A DNA stretch of 41,131 bases from a virus. The stretch covers positions 1 to 41,131 of the IMG/VR virus record IMGVR_UViG_3300000117_000063; one strand, given 5' to 3'. The notes beneath the pieces were generated by a model. It was not told the origin of the DNA, did no database searches, and saw nothing but the letters and a program-made list of their open reading frames with translations. This document shows, one piece after another, positions 1-34,885 of the stretch (within the stretch, counting starts at the first letter, position 1; every line of letters begins with the position of its first letter). The position numbers and the translations under genes were made by a program.

Positions 1-3000
1 AGTATGTTTTTAGGACCAGAAAATAGAAAGAGTGCATATTCTCAAGATGGTTCGTATTGGGCTTCTACACTATTCGGGGCTATGGGTGGTGGTGGATTTA
101 CTATGCTTGGGGGTCTTTATAATAGAAAAACTAATAAAGCACGTCAACAAAGACAGATAGAAGAGATTGGTAAAAGACAAGAGTTTATAATAAATTCTCT
201 AAATAAAAGAAATGAAGCACAAGATAAGGGAGATGTTGAAGGTGTTAAGCTACAAAATAGAATGCTTGCAGTAAACTTAGGATTAAACGCATCTCAAGCT
301 GGAACTGTAGATTTACTATTAGAACAAATAAATGATGAAAATTTTGACGCAATTCTTTTAGATAATGGTATTACACAAGAACAGTTAAATACTACTAAAA
401 AAGAAATAGTTGAAACTATTAATCAGGCTGAAAAACGCTATAGAAATTATAGTAATAGAATATTTGGTAATGAGTATGGTGCTGGAGCAGCAAGAGCTGT
501 TACAGAACTAGAAATGGCTATGGATATGTATAGTGAATTAATGCAAGACATAGATAGTAGAATAACAGAATCTCAAGAAAACACTAAAATAGCTGAAGAA
601 AAGTCTCAAATTGGTGTAAACACTAAAAAACGTAGAGAAATACAAACTAATATTGCTAGTTTGAAGCAGACTTTAGAAAAAGTAGAAACTATAATTGAAA
701 ACTTAGAAAACGATAATGCTACTCCTAATATAACCAAAGAAGAAAAAGCTCAAAATGATTCTACTATTGCTAACTTTATGCAGTGGAAAGATAATTATAA
801 TGCAGAACTAAAATTACTAACTCAAGAAGGAGCAGATCTAGAAAAAAATTCTAAAGAAACTTATACTGAAGATAAATTTAAAGAAGAGCAAGAATATTTA
901 AATCAGACTAATAGAAATGATGTAGTACAATTAGCTAATCAAAAACAAATATATAAAGCAAATAGATTAGCAGCATGGAAACAATTAAATGAAATACTAA
1001 GTGGTAATTTTGAATTTACAGTAAAACAAAAGTCAGATAAAATAGAAGATGCATTATTAAGTGATAAAGAGCTTAAGAAAAAGCTTAAGATGGATAGATT
1101 AGATCGTGCAGATATTGAAAGCAGATGGAATTCTATTACAAAAAAGAACGCAAGAGAAACGCAGAATGATGCTAGTATACAGGATTTGATGGATTTACTA
1201 TCTAATCCGGCTACTACACAAGATCAAATAGATATATTTTTAGATGAGTATCAAGATAATAAAGAAGTAAGAGAAGCTTCAAGGCCTCTTATTGCAAGCT
1301 GGAAATCTAGAAAAGATCAGTTAGAATTACAAGCATCTATAGATAACTTAAGAAAAGCAAGTCAAGAAGTTAATGAAGCTGTTAAAGAAGGTAAAGAAAT
1401 AGAGAACTCTGAAAAAGTTATAAACGAAGTTATGCGTTTATTAAATGAAATTTGGGGTGTTGAGGGTATACATAAGGATAGTAAAGGAAATCCTTTATCA
1501 GAAAAACAACAAAGAGCTAAACAACGAGACTATAACTGGGGTAAAAATTTAGGTAAATTTATAGCAAGATATAAATATGGTATACCTGAATCTTTAAACT
1601 GGCAATGGGATAAGTTATTTGATAACTTTATTCCTTCAGTACAAGTAATGTGGAATGATCGTATAGGAGTAATTTATACAGAGAGTGGTACATTATTTTT
1701 TGAAGATGAGAATCAACATAAAACAGCCATAACAAAAGATGTTGACATACTGTTTAATTTAGATATGATTGTATTAAAAAATACAACAACAGTACCTATT
1801 ACTATAGAAGAAGATGGTAGAACTTTTAATATAAAAGGATCTTATTATAGTAACCTTAAAGAAAATCCAACTGATGCTATTAAGTATAATTCAGAGGGTA
1901 TGCCTACAGCTGTTACACTAACTAGATGGTTAGGACATGATATTACAATAACTACTCCAGGTATTGTATTAGACATAGCTAGAGTTATAGAAACTCTAGA
2001 AGCTGTAAAAATATCTAAGTTTGCATCTTTGAATAATGAAGAAAATTCCTTAGATTTGGGAGATACTATTCATTATGCAGTCTATGAAAAAACACCAAAA
2101 GGTTATGACCTAGTGGTGTATAACCAGGAGACAGGTAAAAAAGTTAAAGGCAGTACTAAAGAAGGTAAGTCTTTAAAGCATTTAGCTAATGCGATCTTAA
2201 GTAATAAGATACAAGAAGAAATTAATAAAATAAAAAAAGAATTTAATGAATCTACAACAACTTATAATGTTACTCCCACCGAAACTTCAAAAGAAGCTCT
2301 TAGCGGTACCCCCGGTCAAGCAGCCAGCGTTTCTCAAGAAGTTGAGGGAGTCGAAGACCCCGCAAAAAAGGAAGAAAAAATAACAGCTTCAGCACAATCT
2401 GCTAGCGCAATAGTTAATGTAGATCGTGCAAAAGTAACTGAGAAGGAGAAGAAAGAAATAATAGATGATATAAATAATGATGCTTTACAAGTAGATAAAG
2501 CAAACGCTGAAAAAATTATAGAAGAAGAGGCTAAAAAGAGAGAAGATAATTTAAAAGAAGAAACAAGCGAAAGTATAGACAATTTATTAAAAGACTCTAA
2601 ATCTAATCCTGAAAAAACTGTAGATCTTATAGACTCTTCAGTTAATCAACAAGAGCCTGGGAAGATAAAAGCACCTAGAAGTAAAGCAGTTACTAATCCT
2701 ACAGCTACTAATAAAAATAAAATAGAACTAGATAAGGCGTACCCTCAAGCATGGACTCCTCAATATATAGGTGTTAATCTAGGTACTAAAGCTAGCCCTT
2801 TATGGGTACAAGCCGTGGATATAAACGGTAATAGTGTTCCAATGTTTTCTAGATCTAATGGCGCTGCGTATAGAATTATACCCGAATCTTTTTTATCTCC
2901 AACACAGCTAGATAATCTTGATAAACAATCTCCTGGTTCAGGAACTGTAACATCTGTATGGTACAATGAGCCTAGAAAAAACATGAACAATCAAGTCATG

Positions 3001-6000
3001 AGAGAGGGTAATCGTATTATAGTAAACAAAGAAAAACAAATTAGATATACGGTTGTTAATCCTAAGACTAAAAAAAGAGAGAATGCTGTTATGGTTGTGT
3101 ATCCAGGGTCAACTAATCAAGCAGATATTGTTGATTTTGATGTAGCTAACAATCCAGATACAGGGGTTGGGACAGATGTTATATTAAGAGTAGAACCTAA
3201 TTGGCAATATTATAAAAGTAAAGATTCTAATGATGTAATAATTACTGTAAGATTAGCAGCGAATCCAGAAACTGTTGTTTCGATTATGAGAGGTGGTACA
3301 GCTTCTTTTAAACAAAACTTATTGCTAAGAAAAAATATAGCCGAAGCTTTAAAAGGTAATAGACCTATGGATATTAAAGCTAAAATTGCAGGTAAAACTG
3401 ATGGCTTTGTTACTAATCTAAAAAAACGTGGTATATCTCTTAAGCAATCTATAGAAGTGTTAGGGCCAGATCTTGTTTTAGGGTATGGTATTGATGGAAC
3501 TGTACGTGTACCTAACTCTACTGTATCTGTTGCTAATTCTCAATTTGTAGAAAACGGTACTATATATGCAGCAATAAAATCTGCTAGCGGAAGAGTAATA
3601 CCTATAAGATTAGAAACTTCTAATCTAAATAATACAGCTGCTAATAAAGTAGTAGAGATTATTTTAGATAATAAACTATCAGAAGAAGATAGGAGAGCAC
3701 AGGTAAATAAAATTGTACAAGTTTATGGTAAACTTGAAGAAGATACTCAGCTTGCTATGGATAATTATAGAATTAAATTTCCATATTCAGGAAAAATGAT
3801 TGGTCTACAAATCCATCCGGAAGGAAGCGATCAAATAAGTAACTTTGAAAAATTTATAACGGGAAAGCCTTACAAATATATTTTATATGACCAACAAGGA
3901 TTAATACAATCTTCAGGCCAAGTACAAAGAACATCGGGAGAAACTGTACAAAAAATATTAAGAGATAGTAAAGATTTTTCTTCACAGAATTTAGTTGATA
4001 ATAGAAATGTATTTATTGAGCATTTAAAAACAAAAAAATATAATGTACAGGGACATGAATTAAATGTTAATGAGCCTTATATGAGCCCAATAAATAATCT
4101 AGAGTATAAAAATTATTTAGAGTATTTATCGGATCCTAATATAAGAGTTGTAACTACAGATATTCCGGGAGGAACTTCTGCTAAATTCCATCATTCTATT
4201 ATATATACAGAAGTCGTAGATGATACTACTAAAATTAGTTTACCTTTTCAAAAAGCTGAGCTAACTAAACAAGAAGTAAAAGAATTTACCGAACCTCAAT
4301 TAGATGAAGATGTTATAAGCGCTATAGAGAATGAAGCTACTATGTCTATAGATGATTTAATTGAGAATAACAAGAAAAAACCTAAGACTAAAAATGATAT
4401 AGACAATATAGATGATATTGATTTACCGGGGATTAAGTTACGAGAAGCTGATCTTGTTAGTCCGCCTTCATATAATATGCTTACACAAGAAGAAGTAACA
4501 TGGTTTAAAGAAAAGTTTGGAAAAGAGGGTGTAAATGTATTAGAAAGAGTAAAATGGATAAGAGTATCAAAGGGTAGAAATGCTTGGGGTTTTTATAAAA
4601 ATGGTTTAGTTACATTAGCACGAGAAGGTAAAGAAGGTACAGCATACTGGGAAGCTTTTAGAAGAGTTTTTGATATACATTTATCTGAAGAAGAGAAAAC
4701 AATGGTATTGATGGAAGCTTCAATGACTTATGGAAAATCTATTAGTATTCTAGAGAATAAAAATTTATCTGTAGAGCAGTTAGAAACAGAGTTAGCAAAG
4801 AACTTTATGGAGTTTATGCTCAACGAAAAAGACCCTTCTTTTAAAGGCGCTATAAAAAGATTCTTTAAAGAATTATGGTATGCAATTAAAAACTTTGTAG
4901 GTTTAAATAGCAGTATAGAAAGATTATTTAGAAATATAAGAGATACAAAATATAAAAATTATACACAGGCAGAATTAGCTAAGCTATCTAATGTAGAAAA
5001 TGAACAGCTTAGACAAATGTATAATAAAGAAGGACAGCCTATGCCACAAGAATTTGTTGAAGAGGTTGTAGGTAATATAAACCATGATCTATATTCTGCA
5101 CTGCAAGTTAAAGCAAAAGAAGATAATGTATCTTTTGAATCTTACCTTAAAGACCAAAAACAACTAGATATATTCTATGATACTCTAAGAAAGCAATATA
5201 AAGCTATAGGTAAAAAGATATTAGAAACTCCAGGAATAAGTGAAAGGGTAAAAAGTATAGGAGAAAATTATCTACGAATAACTGATGACTCTTTATGGGG
5301 TATCAGAACAGATGCATTGCATAATCTAACCTCTCCAGGCTTTAAGAAGCTTGCTATACAAAACTTACAACCATTATTTGGTGTAAAGTATACTACATAT
5401 AGAGGACAAGAAATGACAGATGATCTTGATGCTAATGAGGTTAATGATATAGTACAAGAGACTGAACCTCAAGCACAAGAAAGAATACACGGTATAAATT
5501 ATTATTTTAGACCTGTTAAAGATACATTATCTAAAGATGTTAAAATAGGATTAAGTTTTATAGAATCTAAAGAAAAAGGAAAGTTGTTAGGTAAATATAG
5601 ATTTGTACCATTTGATGATGTATATAACTATCTTGCTTTAAACTTATCTAACGCTCCAGAAGGTAGGGTTTTAGAAAAACTAAAAACATTACAGCATGAA
5701 TTAGTACCTCAAGTGTTACAAAAATACACAGAAGCTAGTCCTGCATGGCAAAATAAATTTATTACACATTTTAATAAACAAAACATAGCATTTAAAACAT
5801 TAGTTATTGATAATAATGGAACTGTTAAAGTTATGTATACAAACCGTAATGGGCTAGAAAGACAGATCATTAATGATTGGATGAGTGGTAAGTCTACTTC
5901 ACCTATATTTAAAGAAGTTAACGGAGAAAATGATACAATAGATACTGAAATAGCTAAAGAGTTTCAAGCAATTATTGAAAAAGATTTAGTAGACATACAT

Positions 6001-17957: not shown

Positions 17958-18968
17958 TTATTTAGAAATTTCAGCAGCTAAACGATCATTTTGAGCCAAT
18001 TCGGCTTCAAGATCATTTATTTGCTTTCTTTTAGCTTCCTCATATGCTTTCAAATCGTTTTTCATAGATTGAGCATTGAATTCACTATAATCAGATTCTA
18101 GATATACATTCTCGTTCTCACCATTACTAATAGCAATAGGAAAATATTCACAGCATCTCATTTTAGTGTTATTGTAATCTGACGGCACTGCCACCACATT
18201 ACGAGGACTTACTAATACTTCTAATATTACACCATCATCATATCCAAAATCATGAACATATTCCATAGACCCCACGTGAAGGCCTGAAGAGCATGTTTGA
18301 TTTGGATTAGAGTCACAATCCTCTCTTGGCATTGTAATAGGCTGACCTACTTTAATTACCATTCCGTGACTGCCACTGTGATAAGGTGCGAAAGTTAATG
18401 ATTGAGTATATTTCTTTTCTCTTTCGCCAGTGTCTTCATTGTACTCGAACTGAACAACTTCTTCCCCAGTCGTTTTATCGTACTTAGATTTAACTTTACA
18501 GGCTTTGTAAGCAAGAAAATACCCTTTGTCTGTTATTGGATGGCCATTGTGCTCTAGAAAGCTATATAATTGCTTTCTAACAGCTTTATCCGGATTTAAT
18601 AACAGATGCTTCCAGAAATTAACTAAACCGTCTAAAGGAATTCCATCCTCCATCCACTTCATTAATTTCTTTGCTAAAAAATTAGGTATAGGATCAGTAG
18701 TACCTTTAAGATACATTTTCCTACCACCATCAAATTCAAATCTCCCATCAGTTTGATTTTGAATTCGGTGTCCAGGAGTTAGCAGCTCCTGAACTTTGCC
18801 CATTATGGCATTACGTTCATCATTATCTCTAGATTTATTATAATTTTCAGCTAATTTAATAACTTTATCAGCTTCAGAGAAGCTTCTAGAAATACTTTTT
18901 GGTAGTCCATCGATAATGACCTGAACGTGGTCTTTATCAACTTTACAGACTAAATAACTATTATTCAT
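17958..18968 (-). CDS. rIIB: rIIB-like protein
   Basis: A 336-residue homologue of T4 rIIB. Diagnostic stretches are LVNFWKHLLLNPDKAVRKQL, FLEHNGHPITDKGYFLAYKA, CSSGLHVGSMEYVHDFG, VVAVPSDYNNTKMRCCEY and VGQPITMPRED, in the order seen in rIIB proteins. In T4, rIIA and rIIB together protect the infected cell from lambda Rex exclusion and affect membrane and lysis physiology; their biochemical role is still unclear. The start overlaps the rIIA stop by 4 bases (ATGA), so the pair is translationally coupled as in other phages. A strong hairpin follows the gene. The N-terminal about 65 residues are diverged and the C-terminus is a short charged helix. Confidence 0.88.
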   Translation of the reverse strand: MNNSYLVCKVDKDHVQVIIDGLPKSISRSFSEADKVIKLAENYNKSRDNDERNAIMGKVQELLTPGHRIQNQTDGRFEFDGGRKMYLKGTTDPIPNFLAKKLMKWMEDGIPLDGLVNFWKHLLLNPDKAVRKQLYSFLEHNGHPITDKGYFLAYKACKVKSKYDKTTGEEVVQFEYNEDTGEREKKYTQSLTFAPYHSGSHGMVIKVGQPITMPREDCDSNPNQTCSSGLHVGSMEYVHDFGYDDGVILEVLVSPRNVVAVPSDYNNTKMRCCEYFPIAISNGENENVYLESDYSEFNAQSMKNDLKAYEEAKRKQINDLEAELAQNDRLAAEISK

Positions 18969-21427
18969 TTTTTTATTTTATTTAATTTTTTAAACTTAAC
19001 CGTCTTTTTATTCTTACTTTTTAAATAAGTTCTTAATGATAAAAACAATTCTTTATTTCTAATTATCGTTTGATCATTTTTTGATTGAACTTGTCCTAAA
19101 TTTTGAATAATTGATAGGTCTTTGGCATATTCTTCTAGCTCTTCTAAAATTTCTAATGATTTGTGATCTTTGCAATCATACTTAGTACACATATCGATTA
19201 AAGCTTCTTTTTCAGTGTAACCCAAACTTCTAAATTGATTATAGTAATTAGTATGCAATTTATGCAATTTTTTCCACTTATAAAAGAGATCTTCATTAAG
19301 AGTTTTAAAGACTTGAAACATATTAATATTTTCAACTCTTTCCTTAATTAGATGAGCAGTATACCATCTTTTTACAATATGATGTTTCATTTCAAATAAT
19401 TGATTAACATTAATAAATTCACTTAATTCGTTCTTGATACTATTAGCAACTTTCAGTATAACTACACCGTCATGCTTATAATACTTTTGACGCTTCTTTT
19501 CATCAGCTTCAAAAGAAAATGTATGACTTGCATAGTCTACTGAATATTGATTATAAGCATCTTCACCTTGTTTGCATATTTGTCCAACAGCTTTAAGTAA
19601 ATCATTATCTTTAGAATTACCATAAATAATAATACCACCCTTATCTTTGTAATTACCCATAATTTCACCATCGGTTTCTATATTACAAAATTTAGGATTA
19701 TTACTATTATCTTGATAATATCTTCTACAAAATAATTTACCTAACCTCTTTCTTCTTTCCTGATCTGTTTCAAATTCACCCATAGCTTCTAACTCATCTT
19801 CATTAGTTACAATAACATCATCATACATTTTAAATTTATGCTTACAACCATCAATTAGTTTACACATAATCTCATAATCAGATATTATAACTCCCTTAAC
19901 TCTTACTTCCAATTTAGAATTCCATAAATCATAATCTTTTTCAGAATCAATTACTTTTTGGTCACATCTATTCCTTCTTAATTGAATATACTTCTTAGTA
20001 GAAGTTTCAGCTATATGATTAAGAATAGTAATATCTTTAGGCTTCCTAAATGTTTTAGTAGGCTTATCAGTACCATCTTCTTTCTTTTCATATACCTGTT
20101 CTTGATAATACACAGGATACTTTAAGAAATCTTCCCAATCAGTCGCTTTTTTAGAGACCTTAAAACCACCAGAATAACTATGATGACTTTCTTTGCTAAC
20201 AGTAGCAATAGTAAAACCCATAAATAATTTTTCTATAGCTTTATCTTGTAAAGGATTTACACTTAAAGAACCAAGAAATTCCATCTTAACATCTGTTTGA
20301 GTTAGCCCAGCAAGATGAGATCTTACCTCAAATGTACTAACCCAATTATGTCCATAGTAACTTCTTTTACTTTTCTTAATTGAAGTAGCCATTTTAATCC
20401 AATGTAAGAAATCAGTAGCATTATTTAATTCTCTATTACAATCATATACACAGCTTTCTCTAACAGCTTTAAATTTCTCTTTAATAGCTTCTTTAGTTCT
20501 ATCAGTATATCGAATATTCTCTCTTGAAGGAACCAAATCGATTTCTCCAATAGCAAATTTAAGAGCAGCTGGAGCACGATCTTCATCTATACCATCTAAT
20601 TGATTAAAATCTAATGGATATCTTACTCTTCCAACTACACAATGTAAATTTTTATCAATCTCAGTATTCTCTAAACCTAAAGCCACTATTAAATCTTCAT
20701 CTTCATAATCTATTTGAATAGAATCTATATGAGCTCCTAGACCTTCATCTACATTTATGTATTGCAGTCCATCAAAATATAATAATTGCTGTTCTATAGA
20801 CTTTTTAAACGTTCTAAGGTCTTTATCCTCTTGTATAGGGATAATGACTTCAGTGCAGTTTAAATCCTCTGTAGGCGTTGCTTTTATCATATCCATATGA
20901 AATGCATCATTACCTTTATATAGCATATAAGAGTGTTTAATACCATTATGGTTTGCTATAATATAAAATGTATTAGTATATGAAAATGGAGATTTAGCAC
21001 CAATACCAAACCCACCGATTTGTAAATTGTCGCTTCTTTTAGTTGAATTACCAAACATAGTGTAGATAGTTTCTACTCTTTGTTGGCTTAATCCAATACC
21101 AAAATCTCTAAATATCATTGCATTACCAATACCTAATAATATATTCTCTTCTTGAAATTCTATTTGAGGACATTTATTGTCAGGATGCCAGTATTTAGGA
21201 ACATCTTCATGAGTACTAGGTATAATACCTTCTCTCTTAAGACGTTTCTCTCTGTGTGCATCATAACAATTAGATGTTACTTCTCTTACTATAGAACCTA
21301 TAGGATCAGAATATAAATTAATCAAAGAATCGATAATAATACCCATCGAGTCTTCTCCTATTTTAAATTTATTGGTTTTCATTTCACCAATAATTTTTTC
21401 TACGCTTTTTTCTCTTTTAATTTCCAT
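18965..21427 (-). CDS. rIIA: rIIA-like GHKL ATPase
   Basis: An 820-residue protein with a GHKL (Hsp90/histidine kinase/MutL/gyrase) ATP-binding domain at the N-terminus: N box E49-VTS-N53-CYDA, G1 box D108-F-G110-I-G112, and a glycine-rich lid GGFGIG at 138-143 followed by AKSPFSYT. This arrangement, the length and the coupled rIIB gene identify a T4 rIIA homologue. The C-terminal half is Lys- and Asn-rich and diverged. The start lies 28 bases inside the upstream primase gene, so expression follows from the replication operon. In T4, rIIA associates with the membrane and with rIIB; here a role in overcoming host exclusion is inferred from family only. Confidence 0.88.
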   Translation of the reverse strand: MEIKREKSVEKIIGEMKTNKFKIGEDSMGIIIDSLINLYSDPIGSIVREVTSNCYDAHREKRLKREGIIPSTHEDVPKYWHPDNKCPQIEFQEENILLGIGNAMIFRDFGIGLSQQRVETIYTMFGNSTKRSDNLQIGGFGIGAKSPFSYTNTFYIIANHNGIKHSYMLYKGNDAFHMDMIKATPTEDLNCTEVIIPIQEDKDLRTFKKSIEQQLLYFDGLQYINVDEGLGAHIDSIQIDYEDEDLIVALGLENTEIDKNLHCVVGRVRYPLDFNQLDGIDEDRAPAALKFAIGEIDLVPSRENIRYTDRTKEAIKEKFKAVRESCVYDCNRELNNATDFLHWIKMATSIKKSKRSYYGHNWVSTFEVRSHLAGLTQTDVKMEFLGSLSVNPLQDKAIEKLFMGFTIATVSKESHHSYSGGFKVSKKATDWEDFLKYPVYYQEQVYEKKEDGTDKPTKTFRKPKDITILNHIAETSTKKYIQLRRNRCDQKVIDSEKDYDLWNSKLEVRVKGVIISDYEIMCKLIDGCKHKFKMYDDVIVTNEDELEAMGEFETDQERRKRLGKLFCRRYYQDNSNNPKFCNIETDGEIMGNYKDKGGIIIYGNSKDNDLLKAVGQICKQGEDAYNQYSVDYASHTFSFEADEKKRQKYYKHDGVVILKVANSIKNELSEFINVNQLFEMKHHIVKRWYTAHLIKERVENINMFQVFKTLNEDLFYKWKKLHKLHTNYYNQFRSLGYTEKEALIDMCTKYDCKDHKSLEILEELEEYAKDLSIIQNLGQVQSKNDQTIIRNKELFLSLRTYLKSKNKKTVKFKKLNKIKK

Positions 21428-28449: not shown

Positions 28450-30315
28450 TTATTTACTCCATTTTTTAGTTATTGTATAGTCTACAGTCATATCAAACCC
28501 TTTGATAATCATTGCGCCAGCTTCTTTCATTAGCCTGCACTGTAATTTTGCCCATTCTTCAGCAAAATCATCTCTTACTTCTACACCTATCTCATCATGT
28601 ACTTGTGTTACCATATAACACGGCAGTTTAAACTTTTTAATATGTTCTCTAATAAGAATCATAGATTGTTTAATCATATCTGCACCAGTACCTTGAATAG
28701 GAGTATTTTTAGAAGCACGCTCAATAGAACCTTTAGTCTTAAAATCTTGAGCAGCAAAGGCTATACCTTTATACCATCCAGGAAACCATCTAATCCTTCT
28801 ATAAGGTTTAAACGTTCTAATGAATCCATTGGTTACACCATACTGTCCTAGTTTATTTAAGAATGCTTTAATATTTGGAAAAGCGCTAAAGTATTTCTTT
28901 ATAAGTTTATCAGCCTCATCTACACTAATATTTAATGTATCAGACAATTTAAACTTACTCATACCATAAGCTAAACCAAAGTTTATAGTCTTAATCATAG
29001 TTCTTAATGCTTTCTTATCACCTGTACGCCATTTATCCCCAAAGACTAGCTCTGCACAAACTGAATGTAGATCTTCATTGTTTTTTCTACACTTAATCCA
29101 TACAGGGTCCTGAGAACCATAAGCTATAATAGCTAACTCCTGCCCACTATAATCAACAGATACAATACTGTATCCATCTCTTGCAGTGAAGCAATTCCGA
29201 AACTCATTCCTGGCTGGAATGTTTTGCATATTAGGCTTACGATCCTCTTTGGACCCACTAGACACACGTCCAGTATTGAGTACTTGCCAAAAGCTGGTTC
29301 TAACCTTACCATCTTTCATTATGTACTTTGTAAATGATTTACCGTATGTACTAGATATCTTTTGTTTCTCCTTATACTGTAAGTACTTGGCAACCAAGGG
29401 TTTATGTTTGTATTTATATAACTCAAAAGCATTAACTTTTTCTAAAGTTATATCTAAATAAGAGTTCATAACTCGCTTTACTTGTAAAGGAGAAGACCAC
29501 TTAACATTGACTTTTCTCAGTTCATCTGCTGGTGTAAACATATCAAGCTGTACATAATCATCAATGAAATTGTTCATATTGTTAACTATAATTTCATCAT
29601 CTAATTTTAAAGCTAGTTCCTGCACCAAACCCTCATTGTTGACTGCATTGTCAAGCCAAGATTCTTTATCAAAACATAGACCATTGTATTCTATGTCAGC
29701 AAATGCTAGAGATGCTTTGGTTTCGAGCAACAGCAAAGTATACAAATCTAACTTTTGTATCTCTTTCAACTGTATATCCATTATTTTTAATAAAAATTGG
29801 ACGTCTTCTGCACCATAACATATTTGCTCAGATGTAAAAGGATTACCTTCTAATCCGATGAATTTGTTTCGAACCTCTTTGTTAAGTGATATCTCCAGAT
29901 ATCTTTGAGTTAAACTATTAAGGCTGTAGCCCCACTTATCTTTTCCACAATGTAATATACATTCAGCCAACATGGTGTCATATATATTATTTACTTCTAT
30001 ATTATAATTTGATTTAATAAATTTATAATCAAATTTAACATTATGAAATATTTTAGTTGCAGATCCTTCTAGATAAGCTCGTAATGGTTCAATAGATATA
30101 GTTCTTGTGTCTATAACATATTGAACATCAGCTGTTCCAATTTGAAACATAACTATTTTCTTACGAGTGAAGTCTTTACCATCAGTTTCTGTATCTACCC
30201 CAACGACTTCTTGTTTAGATATATACTCAACACACTCATCTATTGTCCCTAACTCAAAAGGACATAGACTATTTGCTAACGGGTGTTGATCCGTTACTAA
30301 TATTATTTTACTCAT
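28450..30315 (-). CDS. Family A DNA polymerase with 3'-5' exonuclease
   Basis: A 621-residue replicative polymerase. The proofreading domain shows D41-TE43 (exo I), H91-N92..D96 (exo II) and Y167-x3-D171 (exo III). The polymerase domain has motif A VDYSGQEL (D388), motif B R438-TMIK442-TINF446-GLAYG, and motif C QVHDE near residue 580. All catalytic residues are present, so it should be active in both functions. There is no 5'-3' exonuclease domain, as usual for phage enzymes of the T7/PolA kind. It heads the large replication operon, after two very small genes. Confidence 0.95.
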   Translation of the reverse strand: MSKIILVTDQHPLANSLCPFELGTIDECVEYISKQEVVGVDTETDGKDFTRKKIVMFQIGTADVQYVIDTRTISIEPLRAYLEGSATKIFHNVKFDYKFIKSNYNIEVNNIYDTMLAECILHCGKDKWGYSLNSLTQRYLEISLNKEVRNKFIGLEGNPFTSEQICYGAEDVQFLLKIMDIQLKEIQKLDLYTLLLLETKASLAFADIEYNGLCFDKESWLDNAVNNEGLVQELALKLDDEIIVNNMNNFIDDYVQLDMFTPADELRKVNVKWSSPLQVKRVMNSYLDITLEKVNAFELYKYKHKPLVAKYLQYKEKQKISSTYGKSFTKYIMKDGKVRTSFWQVLNTGRVSSGSKEDRKPNMQNIPARNEFRNCFTARDGYSIVSVDYSGQELAIIAYGSQDPVWIKCRKNNEDLHSVCAELVFGDKWRTGDKKALRTMIKTINFGLAYGMSKFKLSDTLNISVDEADKLIKKYFSAFPNIKAFLNKLGQYGVTNGFIRTFKPYRRIRWFPGWYKGIAFAAQDFKTKGSIERASKNTPIQGTGADMIKQSMILIREHIKKFKLPCYMVTQVHDEIGVEVRDDFAEEWAKLQCRLMKEAGAMIIKGFDMTVDYTITKKWSK

Positions 30316-31225: not shown

Positions 31226-31387
31226 TCATTTCTTTTTATTATACGCCCGGAATTGTTTTAATAAAGTATCAAACTTTCTTTTTAATTTGGCTGTATTATA
31301 TACTTTTTTATATCCAGGCTTAACGTAAGTATATTCTATATCTACAGGCATAATTTCTTCATATGTATGTCCTATTTTACTATTCAT
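31226..31387 (-). CDS. 53-residue basic hypothetical protein
   Basis: ATG at 31387, TGA at 31226. Starts MNSKIGHTYEEIMPVDIEY and ends in a Lys/Arg-rich helix (LKRKFDTLLKQFRAYNKKK). No family recognised. One base separates its stop from the next start. The basic tail could bind nucleic acid. It is the first gene after the 740-bp gene-free block and sits just below the 11-bp tandem repeats. Confidence 0.5.
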   Translation of the reverse strand: MNSKIGHTYEEIMPVDIEYTYVKPGYKKVYNTAKLKRKFDTLLKQFRAYNKKK

Positions 31388-31406: not shown

Positions 31407-31433
31407 ATTAGTTTAACATTAGTTTAACATTAG
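31407..31433. repeat. 11-bp tandem direct repeat upstream of the small-gene operon
   Basis: ATTAGTTTAAC occurs twice in tandem (31407-31417, 31418-31428) followed by a partial third ATTAG. It lies 20 bases upstream of the ATG at 31387 and resembles an iteron or operator. No further copies seen in the window. Confidence 0.6.
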
Positions 31434-31514
31434 ATATGTATATTGTACTCAATGAGAATAGACATAACTAAATATTTATACATTATCCTTATGATAATAG
31501 TATTTGCTTTAAGC

Positions 31515-31643
31515 GTATAAGCCTAGTGATACTTTCAATAATAATGGGTTAAACACTATTGTGTTCGGTCGTCTATAAGACTACTTTCCCGCGATAAGCT
31601 GGCCGGCCTATCTTTATTATCTAATCATATCACTGGCTCATAC
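31515..31643. repeat. Inverted repeat closing the first arm of the structured block
   Basis: GTATAAGCC-T-AGTGATA (31515-31531) pairs with TATCACT-GGCTCATAC (31628-31643): 15 Watson-Crick pairs with one mismatch and one bulge. About 96 bases are enclosed, including hairpins AACAC/GTGTT and GTC/GAC. Confidence 0.65.
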
Positions 31644-31942
31644 ATAAACACTGACAAGATCAGAGCAGTCCAGAGTTCACACGCTAATGTAGTCTATACT
31701 CAACTGATAACTTACATACCCTTGTTATCCAAGAATAAGTTTTATTCAACTATGTATATATGACTCATTAGATTAGCAAACAACAAAAACATATCGAAAA
31801 CCCTACGGCAATGGATACATGATCTACCTGGTGACGTGCTTTACAAGACCATTTGGATCTTATCCGTGGTACATGAGGATTTAATCTCATGTCTAATGCA
31901 GCCTCACGGCTCAACACTTGTCATTGTTTATATTTTTATTAA

Positions 31943-32022
31943 AACTATATGAACAGGGAACGTATTATTCACACAAAGTATAACTGGTAGTTAATAATTA
32001 AATACAACCTGTTCATATAGTT
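31943..32022. repeat. Perfect 15-bp inverted repeat with 50-base spacer
   Basis: AACTATATGAACAGG (31943-31957) is exactly complementary to CCTGTTCATATAGTT (32008-32022). The spacer is AT-rich. Could close an RNA domain or form a cruciform. Confidence 0.75.
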
Positions 32023-32028
32023 AATAAG

Positions 32029-32133
32029 TATTAGTGGGGATTAATGAGGACACAAAAAGAGGCTTTATACACACTATGGGTTAGCCAAAAACATCCTAAC
32101 ATATTATTACTAATACATCTTACCCCACTAATA
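32029..32133. repeat. Perfect 11-bp inverted repeat overlapping a gene end
   Basis: TATTAGTGGGG (32029-32039) pairs with CCCCACTAATA (32123-32133), 83 bases apart. The right arm includes the stop of the 84-residue membrane protein gene, so a transcript from that gene would fold back into the block. Confidence 0.65.
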
Positions 32134-32382
32134 GGTTTGATATTGTTTTAGTTTTCTAAATATTCCTTGTCCTTGAGAATAGCTAATTCTTATCTCGTCT
32201 AACAAACAATATAAAACAAAGCATAGCACCCATGATGCTACAAATAAGAAACTACCCGTAAGTGGAGTAGTTGGTATGATTTTATACATTATTTGGAACG
32301 GTACTGTAAAACAGTATATCATACCAAAGAATGCAATGCTGATTAATACAATCTCTCGCATAAATAAAATTAATTGTTTCAT
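32128..32382 (-). CDS. Small membrane protein with two or three predicted spans
   Basis: An 84-residue protein with hydrophobic stretches at about 8-30 (ISIAFFGMIYCFTVPF) and 41-62 (TGSFLFVASWVLCFVLYCLL), followed by a polar, Gln-rich tail. Inner membrane location is likely. I recognise no family. It is a single-gene unit: candidate promoter motif TATAGCGAAAGTA 26 bases upstream, a terminator hairpin of the previous gene just above that, and the structured block after its stop. An early host-interaction role such as blocking superinfection is possible, by position only. Confidence 0.6.
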   Translation of the reverse strand: MKQLILFMREIVLISIAFFGMIYCFTVPFQIMYKIIPTTPLTGSFLFVASWVLCFVLYCLLDEIRISYSQGQGIFRKLKQYQTY

Positions 32383-32407
32383 GTCTTTATATATTTTTAT
32401 AAATTAT

Positions 32408-32420
32408 TACTTTCGCTATA
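32408..32420 (-). promoter_or_regulatory. TATAGCGAAAGTA motif, copy 1
   Basis: The 13-mer TATAGCGAAAGTA reads on the minus strand 26 bases before the ATG at 32382. The same 13-mer is found at 33230-33242, a partial one at 33329-33339, and its first ten bases on the plus strand at 34221-34230. Upstream is TTATATTTA, close to the Bacteroidota -7 box. Likely a promoter or transcript-start element. Confidence 0.55.
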
Positions 32421-33178: not shown

Positions 33179-33221
33179 ACTGACTGTTGCACGGTTATAT
33201 CATTGTGCTCTTCGTTTTGTA

Positions 33222-33265
33222 GATTACTATACTTTCGCTATATATATATTAATACTATAGTAATC
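33222..33265 (-). promoter_or_regulatory. TATAGCGAAAGTA motif, copy 2, inside an inverted repeat
   Basis: The 13-mer TATAGCGAAAGTA (33230-33242, minus strand) is flanked by perfect 10-bp arms GATTACTATA (33222-33231) and TATAGTAATC (33256-33265). It lies 52 bases before the ATG at 33178. The arms could be an operator or make a hairpin that opens the site. Confidence 0.55.
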
Positions 33266-33434
33266 AGGGTTATGTTTAAATTGATTAAAATGTGGGTCTA
33301 TACATAGACTACTGTAAGAGAATACATTTACTTTCGTAATTATGCTTTCACTCTGTGGTTAGATTTGTTTTAATGAGACAATCAGGAATATAATTCTCTG
33401 TATTCTCTCTTTAGTAGTTATGTTTATTCCCAAC
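33266..33434. other. Gene-free leader region
   Basis: No coding frame supported. It holds a partial motif TTACGAAAGTA on minus (33329-33339), a small palindrome GTCTAT/ATAGAC near 33296, and two related AGAGAATAC segments. Probably a long untranslated leader or small RNA between the element at 33435 and the 229-residue gene. Confidence 0.4.
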
Positions 33435-33466
33435 TTTAGTAAAGGTCTTTGATCTATAAAAAAAAA
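33435..33466 (-). promoter_or_regulatory. Repeated upstream element, copy 1
   Basis: Plus-strand reading TTTAGTAAAGGT then CTTTGATCTATA and a run of nine A. It matches copies at 33665 and 34041 in order and spacing. The A run is the T tract of the terminator next to it, so the element starts where the previous transcript ends. Confidence 0.55.
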
Positions 33467-33515
33467 GACTAATTAATCAAATGTTACATTCATATGAGGG
33501 TATAATTAATTAGTC
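33458..33515 (-). terminator. Terminator after the 26-residue gene
   Basis: GACTAATTAAT (33467-33477) pairs perfectly with ATTAATTAGTC (33505-33515), 11 bp with a 27-base loop, followed on minus by nine T. The AT-rich stem with long loop is unusual but the T run is clear. Confidence 0.6.
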
Positions 33516-33557
33516 ATCTCTAACCAAAGAGTTTTAGATTGAGCTAGAAACAGACAA

Positions 33558-34070: not shown

Positions 34071-34112
34071 CGACCCACGGGGGGTTTGATTGCGCGTTGG
34101 GCCCGGGGGGAG
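34071..34112. other. 42-bp GC-rich island at the divergent switch
   Basis: 31 of 42 bases are G or C in an otherwise very AT-rich spacer. It includes two runs of six G (CACGGGGGG and GCCCGGGGGG) separated by TTTGATTGCGCGTTGG. It divides leftward and rightward transcription. Could be a packaging or terminus site, an origin element, a G-rich structure, or an assembly join. Confidence 0.6.
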
Positions 34113-34192
34113 TTTTCAATAATGGTCTGCATCTATGAATACTTACCATGAAAAAAATATTATAGAAAATTATTTTTTTTAATTTATTTTAT

Positions 34193-34230
34193 TATATTTG
34201 GATTCTAATAACTAATAAACTATAGCGAAA
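34193..34230 (+). promoter_or_regulatory. Rightward promoter region with Bacteroidota -7 box
   Basis: TATATTTG (34193-34200) matches TAnnTTTG exactly; a TTG near -33 is not seen, only a T-rich tract. TATAGCGAAA (34221-34230) follows just before the ATG, the plus-strand copy of the early motif. Likely start of the rightward transcript. Confidence 0.5.
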
Positions 34231-34406
34231 TGAATTTTATAAACTCATGGAAAAAGGGAAATAAAAAGAATAAGATAGATATATCATTAAGATTTGGAAC
34301 ATTAACTATTCTGGAATTTTATATGTGTTTTTCATCAATGTGTGAAAAAGATTGTAAATGTTCAAGATTTAGATTAATGGTATTTAATTTTGGGGTAGAG
34401 ATATAA
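34230..34406 (+). CDS. 58-residue Cys-containing small protein
   Basis: ATG at 34230, TAA at 34404-34406. N-terminus is Lys/Asn-rich (MNFINSWKKGNKKNK), then a beta-type ISLRFGTLTIL and four Cys in MCFSSMCEKDCKC, ending RFRLMVFNFGVEI. The Cys group could bind zinc. The closing FNFGVEI strand looks like that of other short phage proteins, but I cannot name the family. It is the first gene rightward from the switch point, right after a -7 box and the TATAGCGAAA motif. Confidence 0.55.
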   Translation: MNFINSWKKGNKKNKIDISLRFGTLTILEFYMCFSSMCEKDCKCSRFRLMVFNFGVEI

Positions 34407-34417
34407 AAATATGATTA

Positions 34418-34792
34418 ATGGATGCATTACATGAAAAAAGAAAAAAGAGGGCTGAAGCTTGGAGTAAGTTAACTGATAAGCAAAAAAAAGAACATGATAA
34501 AGATTTTTATCAGTGTACCCATGCAAAGTTTAGAGCTTTATCCTATGTAGATAGAAAAGAAGCTTTAGAAATATTTACTAATAGTAAATTTAAAGCAGAG
34601 TATACCCATCTACTAAAAGATGGTACAAACAGATGGTTATGGACAGTTAGAGATAAAGATTATAACAAAGTAGGATTCATATTAGGTACTCCTACTATAG
34701 ATCAGAAACAAGGTAATTATAATCATAACGATCCATTTAAATCAGATTTTGATTATATGGAAATTGATAATCATAACAGTATAGCGGGTTAG
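34418..34792 (+). CDS. Small charged protein ending inside a tRNA gene
   Basis: A 124-residue protein with a strongly charged N-terminus (HEKRKKRAEAWSKL) and a compact beta-type second half (TNRWLWTVRDKDYNKVGFIL, GTPTIDQ). No family recognised. Its last codons and TAG lie inside the 5' end of the tRNA at 34783, a 10-base overlap, so a ribosome finishing the gene and the tRNA share sequence. The start at 34418 is chosen because the ATG at 34411 is out of frame and stops after seven codons. Confidence 0.7.
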   Translation: MDALHEKRKKRAEAWSKLTDKQKKEHDKDFYQCTHAKFRALSYVDRKEALEIFTNSKFKAEYTHLLKDGTNRWLWTVRDKDYNKVGFILGTPTIDQKQGNYNHNDPFKSDFDYMEIDNHNSIAG

Positions 34793-34854
34793 AGTAGTGG
34801 TTACTCACGGGTTTCATTAGCCCGTCTAGGTTGGTTCGATTCCAACACCCGCAA
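34783..34854 (+). tRNA. tRNA with anticodon CAT (Met or Ile2 type)
   Basis: Full cloverleaf of 72 nt: acceptor AGCGGGT/ACCCGCA (six pairs plus an A-A mismatch at 1-72), D arm GAGT/ACTC with GG in the loop, anticodon arm CGGGT, loop TTCATTA, GCCCG, variable loop TCTAG, and a perfect T arm GTTGG, TTCGATT, CCAAC. Anticodon CAT at 34-36. Position 37 is T, unusual, and the 1-72 mismatch recalls initiator tRNAs. No encoded CCA. Could read AUG, or AUA if the C is modified to lysidine. Confidence 0.8.
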
Positions 34855-34885
34855 CTAAATAGTAATAATAAATAAAAAGATAATA

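Follow-up and report, generated by a model that had tools for sequence, protein, structure and literature searches.

A gene-free block in the genome of a crAss-like phage

The window, the whole stretch of DNA analyzed here, spans 41,131 nucleotides (positions 1 to 41,131 of IMG/VR virus record IMGVR_UViG_3300000117_000063). Upstream of its DNA polymerase gene (28450-30315), a gap of 740 bases separates the two minus-strand open reading frames at 31226-31387 and 32128-32382. The longest stop-free run within this gap is 72 codons and no frame is conserved, in agreement with a sequence-only reading that had described the block as free of genes. The same reading had reported a perfect 15-bp pair 50 bases apart, which we recovered (31943-31957 with 32008-32022), and a tRNA-like element nearby; the tRNA nearby is a tRNA-Met at 34783-34855 on the plus strand, 2.7 kb from the block. 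Its claim of a higher GC content holds against most other spacers (0.32-0.33 in the block versus 0.27-0.31) but not against some short spacers of 0.37-0.42. On either strand the block folds far more strongly than its dinucleotide shuffles, none of 20 being as strong (z about -4.75). Folding of a single sequence can neither give the strand nor prove function, and relatives were therefore sought.

The phage is crAss-like, on several grounds. Among named polymerases, the crAss-like ones come closest to its own (about 30% identity). An open reading frame of 5178 aa carries a DFDID motif, which we take to be the signature of the crAss-like giant RNA polymerase. Among other features of the genome, genes resembling rIIA and rIIB lie at 17958-21427 on the minus strand, in the crAss-like replication module. 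Relatives also conserve two noncoding stretches, 33185-33535 and 34077-34406, that flank the strand switch and might hold promoters, an origin or an RNA. Parts of 33185-33468 are conserved also in more distant relatives (L014, L015, L016 and L018). The motif TATAGCGAAAGTA occurs on the minus strand at 32407-32420 and 33229-33242, upstream of two adjacent genes, as well as in L004, L007 and L010, and is a possible phage promoter. A similar promoter reading of AGCGAAAGTA, found upstream of two window genes, was dropped as the motif is too rare to support a claim.

Relatives of the block

With the polymerase as an anchor for finding relatives in IMG/VR, homologs of the block were identified in 16 contigs besides the window, six of them close and ten remote, representing about 13 distinct lineages. 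The close contigs (group I) share 75-89% DNA identity over the block and 77-94% polymerase identity, and two of the six are nearly identical. The remote contigs (group II) came from searches with DNA patterns and covariance models. One such model, R1, represents the 3' domain and revealed the same element in L011, L016 and L018, with polymerase identities of about 65%. Reading of loci together with two DNA-pattern scans added L014, L015, L108, L109, L110, L112 and L114. A weak R1 match in L014 (1606-1679) was discarded, the true site being 2128-2230. RNA length ranges from about 330 to 970 nt among members, and the element is single-copy in each record searched whole.

Searches further afield returned nothing credible. 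The block and two remote members produced only short chance matches and no homolog among 50,697 annotated phage records, and R1 to R3 had no credible match in phages of about 50% polymerase identity. A scan of a genome collection for the 3' arm gave seven matches, all rejected as chance, and the model confirmed none. Searches of the open-licence literature yielded no description of an RNA of this kind in crAss-like phages.

Anatomy of the RNA

The sequence-only reading gave no strand; we assign the structure to the minus strand. The predicted RNA and its neighbor comprise the following features.

32128-32382, minus strand: upstream neighbor gene for a protein of 84 aa that has hydrophobic stretches; in most members a homolog lies ahead of the RNA
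31419-32131, minus strand, read from 32131 down to 31419: whole structured RNA of about 710 nt, from a structure-conserving alignment of close relatives
32032-32130, minus strand: domain A, the variable 5' domain, closed by UAGUGGGG/CCCCACUA; the closing helix covaries across relatives
31943-32022, minus strand: domain B, a long hairpin with the 15-bp perfect stem and a conserved internal loop, from inverted repeat and alignment
31934-31942, minus strand: linker joining the 5' and 3' halves, with insertions here in L004, L007 and L010 (alignment A1)
31644-31933, minus strand: domain C, the conserved multi-branched 3' core with outer stem UAUAAACAAUGACAAG with CUUGUCAGUGUUUAUGUA; compensatory changes in both groups
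31828-31915, minus strand: core junction of two hairpins and the UGUAAAGCnnGUCAC box, recovered by R3
31684-31771, minus strand: long arm of domain C, CUAAUG.../...CAUUAG; 8 pairs changed on both sides
31478-31643, minus strand: domain D, the 3' domain, with outer stem GUAUGAGCCAGUGAUAU with GUAUCACUAGGCUUAUAC and a conserved bulged A, from a 14-sequence alignment and R1/R2
31593-31612, minus strand: hairpin GAUAGGC-CGGCCA-GCUUAUC with a palindromic GGCC loop, identical in the six group I sequences checked
31430-31471, minus strand: domain E, terminal hairpin of group I with an almost invariant stem of 13 to 15 bp

The alignment of close relatives (A1) shows islands of complete conservation, stem arms that change together, and length changes limited to certain loops. 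Domain A and the stop codon of the preceding open reading frame overlap, and domain B is poorly conserved in L010. The linker grows by tens of bases in relatives, up to roughly 180. The hairpin with the CGGCCA loop sits inside domain D, and this loop is invariant in the close group; the GGCC loop is absent from group II. The stem of domain E varies little, and its pairing is a prediction. Domains C and D are both kept by the remote members, although little of the interior of D remains there, and the 5' parts of these members are unrelated.

Base pairing, strand and unity of the family

Base pairs are retained by compensatory changes. In the alignment of close relatives the whole RNA has 210 consensus pairs, with 95% of cells paired and 53 pairs changed on both sides. 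Domain C shows compensatory changes at 23 of 61 pairs in the close group (92.5% of cells paired) and at 20 of 46 pairs in the remote group (91.9%). Column shuffles of domain C left 81.8% (close) and 78.1% (remote) of cells paired, and with partners slid only 28-43% of cells formed standard pairs. The 3' stem of domain D is paired in 98.3% of cells across the 14-sequence alignment of both groups, and the core junction in 98.2% across seven remote sequences. Each cell stands for a sequence and not for an independent event, and the alignments scored here are also those that supplied the structures, so that the exact figures lean towards structure; the argument is carried by the slid controls and by the two groups agreeing with each other. 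Taken together, the comparison of relatives indicates that the block encodes a large structured RNA. The suggestion of a new ornate RNA class, made from one sequence alone, is supported by many compensatory changes in homologs that lack both a conserved frame and an Rfam match. The homolog search and covariation check proposed with it did find compensatory changes, and a conserved reading frame, named there as evidence against an RNA, was found neither in the homologs nor within 31419-32131.

Non-Watson-Crick pairs point to the strand. Folded as the minus strand, alignments A5, A6 and A8 together contain 51 G-U versus 13 A-C pairs; folded as the plus strand, they contain 13 G-U versus 24 A-C. 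The asymmetry persists even if the plus strand is given a fold of its own. Since the non-Watson-Crick pairs are G-U on the minus and A-C on the plus strand, the element is predicted to act as a minus-strand RNA. The functional form is thus, as judged from pairing patterns, an RNA read from the minus strand, which is also the strand of the neighboring replication genes.

The close and remote groups form a single RNA family. A model built from remote members only (R2) matches the window at 31485-31651 on the minus strand (E 4.7e-5 in its own record) and matches the other close members likewise, save L009 and L010; R1 and R2 are reciprocal for domain D. A third model (R3), which covers another portion of the remote sequences, ranks five close members, the window included, just under its training set in 614 kb, with E values of 0.03-0.07 and each at the corresponding place. 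Its match in the window, at 31828-31915, has an E value of 0.034 in 614 kb and of 5.6e-5 in a local search. The parts covered by R2 and R3 are alike in order and strand across groups. We take as the mark of the family a covarying domain D stem and a domain C core in the same order, strand and neighborhood, and both groups have them.

A stand-alone RNA or a part of its surroundings

Members share a neighborhood upstream of the DNA polymerase wherever flanks are present. Homologs of the upstream hydrophobic protein have 77-93 aa and a conserved C-terminal tail, and the RNA directly follows their gene in most members. L010 has another gene in place of the usual upstream one and retains the RNA. 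The immediate downstream gene varies, with at least five different ones among members. The RNA is kept while its neighbors change and hence behaves as its own unit. The comparisons establish a conserved RNA structure, its strand, a single family, a conserved neighborhood and independence from particular neighbor genes.

We favor, with a probability of about 0.6, the block being a gene for a large stand-alone noncoding phage RNA, likely a folded particle and possibly oligomeric, that serves phage multiplication. The RNA would be made from the minus strand with, or inside, the transcript of the replication module and could exist as a discrete folded particle. Its conserved 3' core (domains C and D) would carry a fast-evolving 5' half attached via the variable linker. 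Loop-loop contacts such as the GGCC loop might allow a homo-oligomer, as in GOLLD and ROOL, and the role may lie in phage multiplication or infection rather than in the regulation of one neighboring gene.

The main rival is a cis-acting mRNA element whose fold controls processing, stability or translation of the flanking replication-module genes, and we give it a real though clearly smaller chance. The RNA shares the strand of its neighbors, its 5' end abuts and overlaps the upstream stop codon, and only tens of bases separate its 3' domain from the start codon that follows. No clear promoter or terminator of its own was found, and the RNA could thus be part of a longer mRNA. However, the next gene varies among members and the upstream gene differs in L010 while the RNA stays, and at 330-970 nt the RNA is long by the standards of such elements. 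The position directly after the gene of a small hydrophobic protein in most members would also suit a membrane-associated RNA-protein particle similar to OLE and OapA, in which the RNA binds the adjoining protein. That L010 has the RNA without this neighbor, and that Rfam scans gave no OLE match, makes such a particle rather improbable.

Improbable to a greater degree is a role in phage DNA synthesis, whether as a primer RNA or as a replication origin, the latter being the alternative offered by the sequence-only reading. The block does belong to the replication module, and the strand switch and the cumulative GC-skew minimum are about 2 kb away. The GC-skew switch at about 33-34 kb falls outside the block though, what is conserved is RNA structure, the asymmetry of G-U over A-C pairs points to RNA, and priming does not need such an extensive multi-domain structure. 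We consider a ribozyme or intron remnant the least probable explanation: large size, branching and conserved unpaired segments would fit, but no intron or ribozyme family matches, the flanking open reading frames are complete and the position is constant.

Comparison with known large RNAs

The Rfam scan called for by the sequence-only reading was run with Rfam 15 on the window and its homologs and gave no gathering-score match inside the block. Weak matches were unrelated chance hits, apart from a tmRNA-like element in L008. This tRNA-like element (2359-2435, plus strand) resembles the tRNA-like part of tmRNA at 42.3 bits, below gathering, and lies just 5' of the RNA. L009 has by sequence a tRNA-like element at the matching place. 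ARAGORN does not call the L008 element a tRNA, nor does it call a tRNA-like sequence with a long variable region in a noncoding gap of L015 (about 3628-3722, plus strand). Noncoding gaps upstream of the polymerase in more distant phages (L032 3187-4182, L060 3107-4409 and L058 2816-3302) fold well on the plus strand (z -4.1 to -4.6), match neither R1 to R3 nor GOLLD, and are possibly unknown RNAs.

OLE RNA with OapA offers a parallel in being a large structured RNA beside a membrane-protein gene. In OLE L9.3, a self-complementary GGCC loop brings two copies into symmetric contact (PMC12286853). By analogy, the GGCC loop of domain D could be a candidate kissing loop joining two copies of the RNA. 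The loop is missing from group II, and oligomerization through it therefore cannot be general. Unlike our RNA, OLE is known from Gram-positive bacteria and not from phages; neither the window nor its homologs have an OLE match in Rfam, and the neighboring protein is unrelated as far as seen. ROOL (RF03087) is likewise a large phage-associated structured RNA, yet its model matched none of 14 records, in a search where no positive control registered, and nothing in the Rfam scans.

GOLLD (RF02032) is the closest analog. GOLLD is phage-encoded, lies near tRNAs and has a conserved 3' region and a variable 5' region (PMC12286853). The new RNA is also phage-encoded and several hundred bases long, with a conserved 3' part and a variable 5' part and linker; domains C and D are common to both groups while the 5' parts differ. 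The tRNA-Met 2.7 kb off on the other strand and the tRNA-like elements of L008 and L009 might correspond to the tRNAs near GOLLD. Sequence and recognizable structure are not shared with GOLLD though, R1 to R3 do not match GOLLD loci, and with E values up to 10 allowed the GOLLD model picks out nothing in the window or in 13 homologous records. The likeness to GOLLD and ROOL proposed at the outset proved apt as an analogy for GOLLD, as two more distant relatives with about 50% polymerase identity, L073 and L074, carry true GOLLD at 215.9 bits. In L073, GOLLD lies about 5 kb upstream of the DNA polymerase, and a tmRNA and a Pistol ribozyme are close by (the three at 550-954, 2871-3297 and 113-188, all on the plus strand and within 6 kb upstream of the polymerase). 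GOLLD was found in none of 41 further relatives, in a search where no positive control registered.

We regard the RNA as a new family with GOLLD-like anatomy that may work like GOLLD, rather than as a member of GOLLD. More tentatively, and with the odds against it, it could be a new class of homo-oligomeric RNA-only particle that crAss-like phages encode, with no sequence relationship to GOLLD or ROOL but doing the same job from a similar place in the genome. Independent evolution of giant phage RNAs, or replacement among them, would follow if this were true. Very few classes of giant structured RNA are known. The family described here spans about 330 to 970 nt, with L014 as a natural minimal version, and within one phage lineage one relative uses GOLLD and others the new RNA upstream of the same gene. 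The minimal member and this lineage thus make the role of giant phage RNAs directly testable by comparison.
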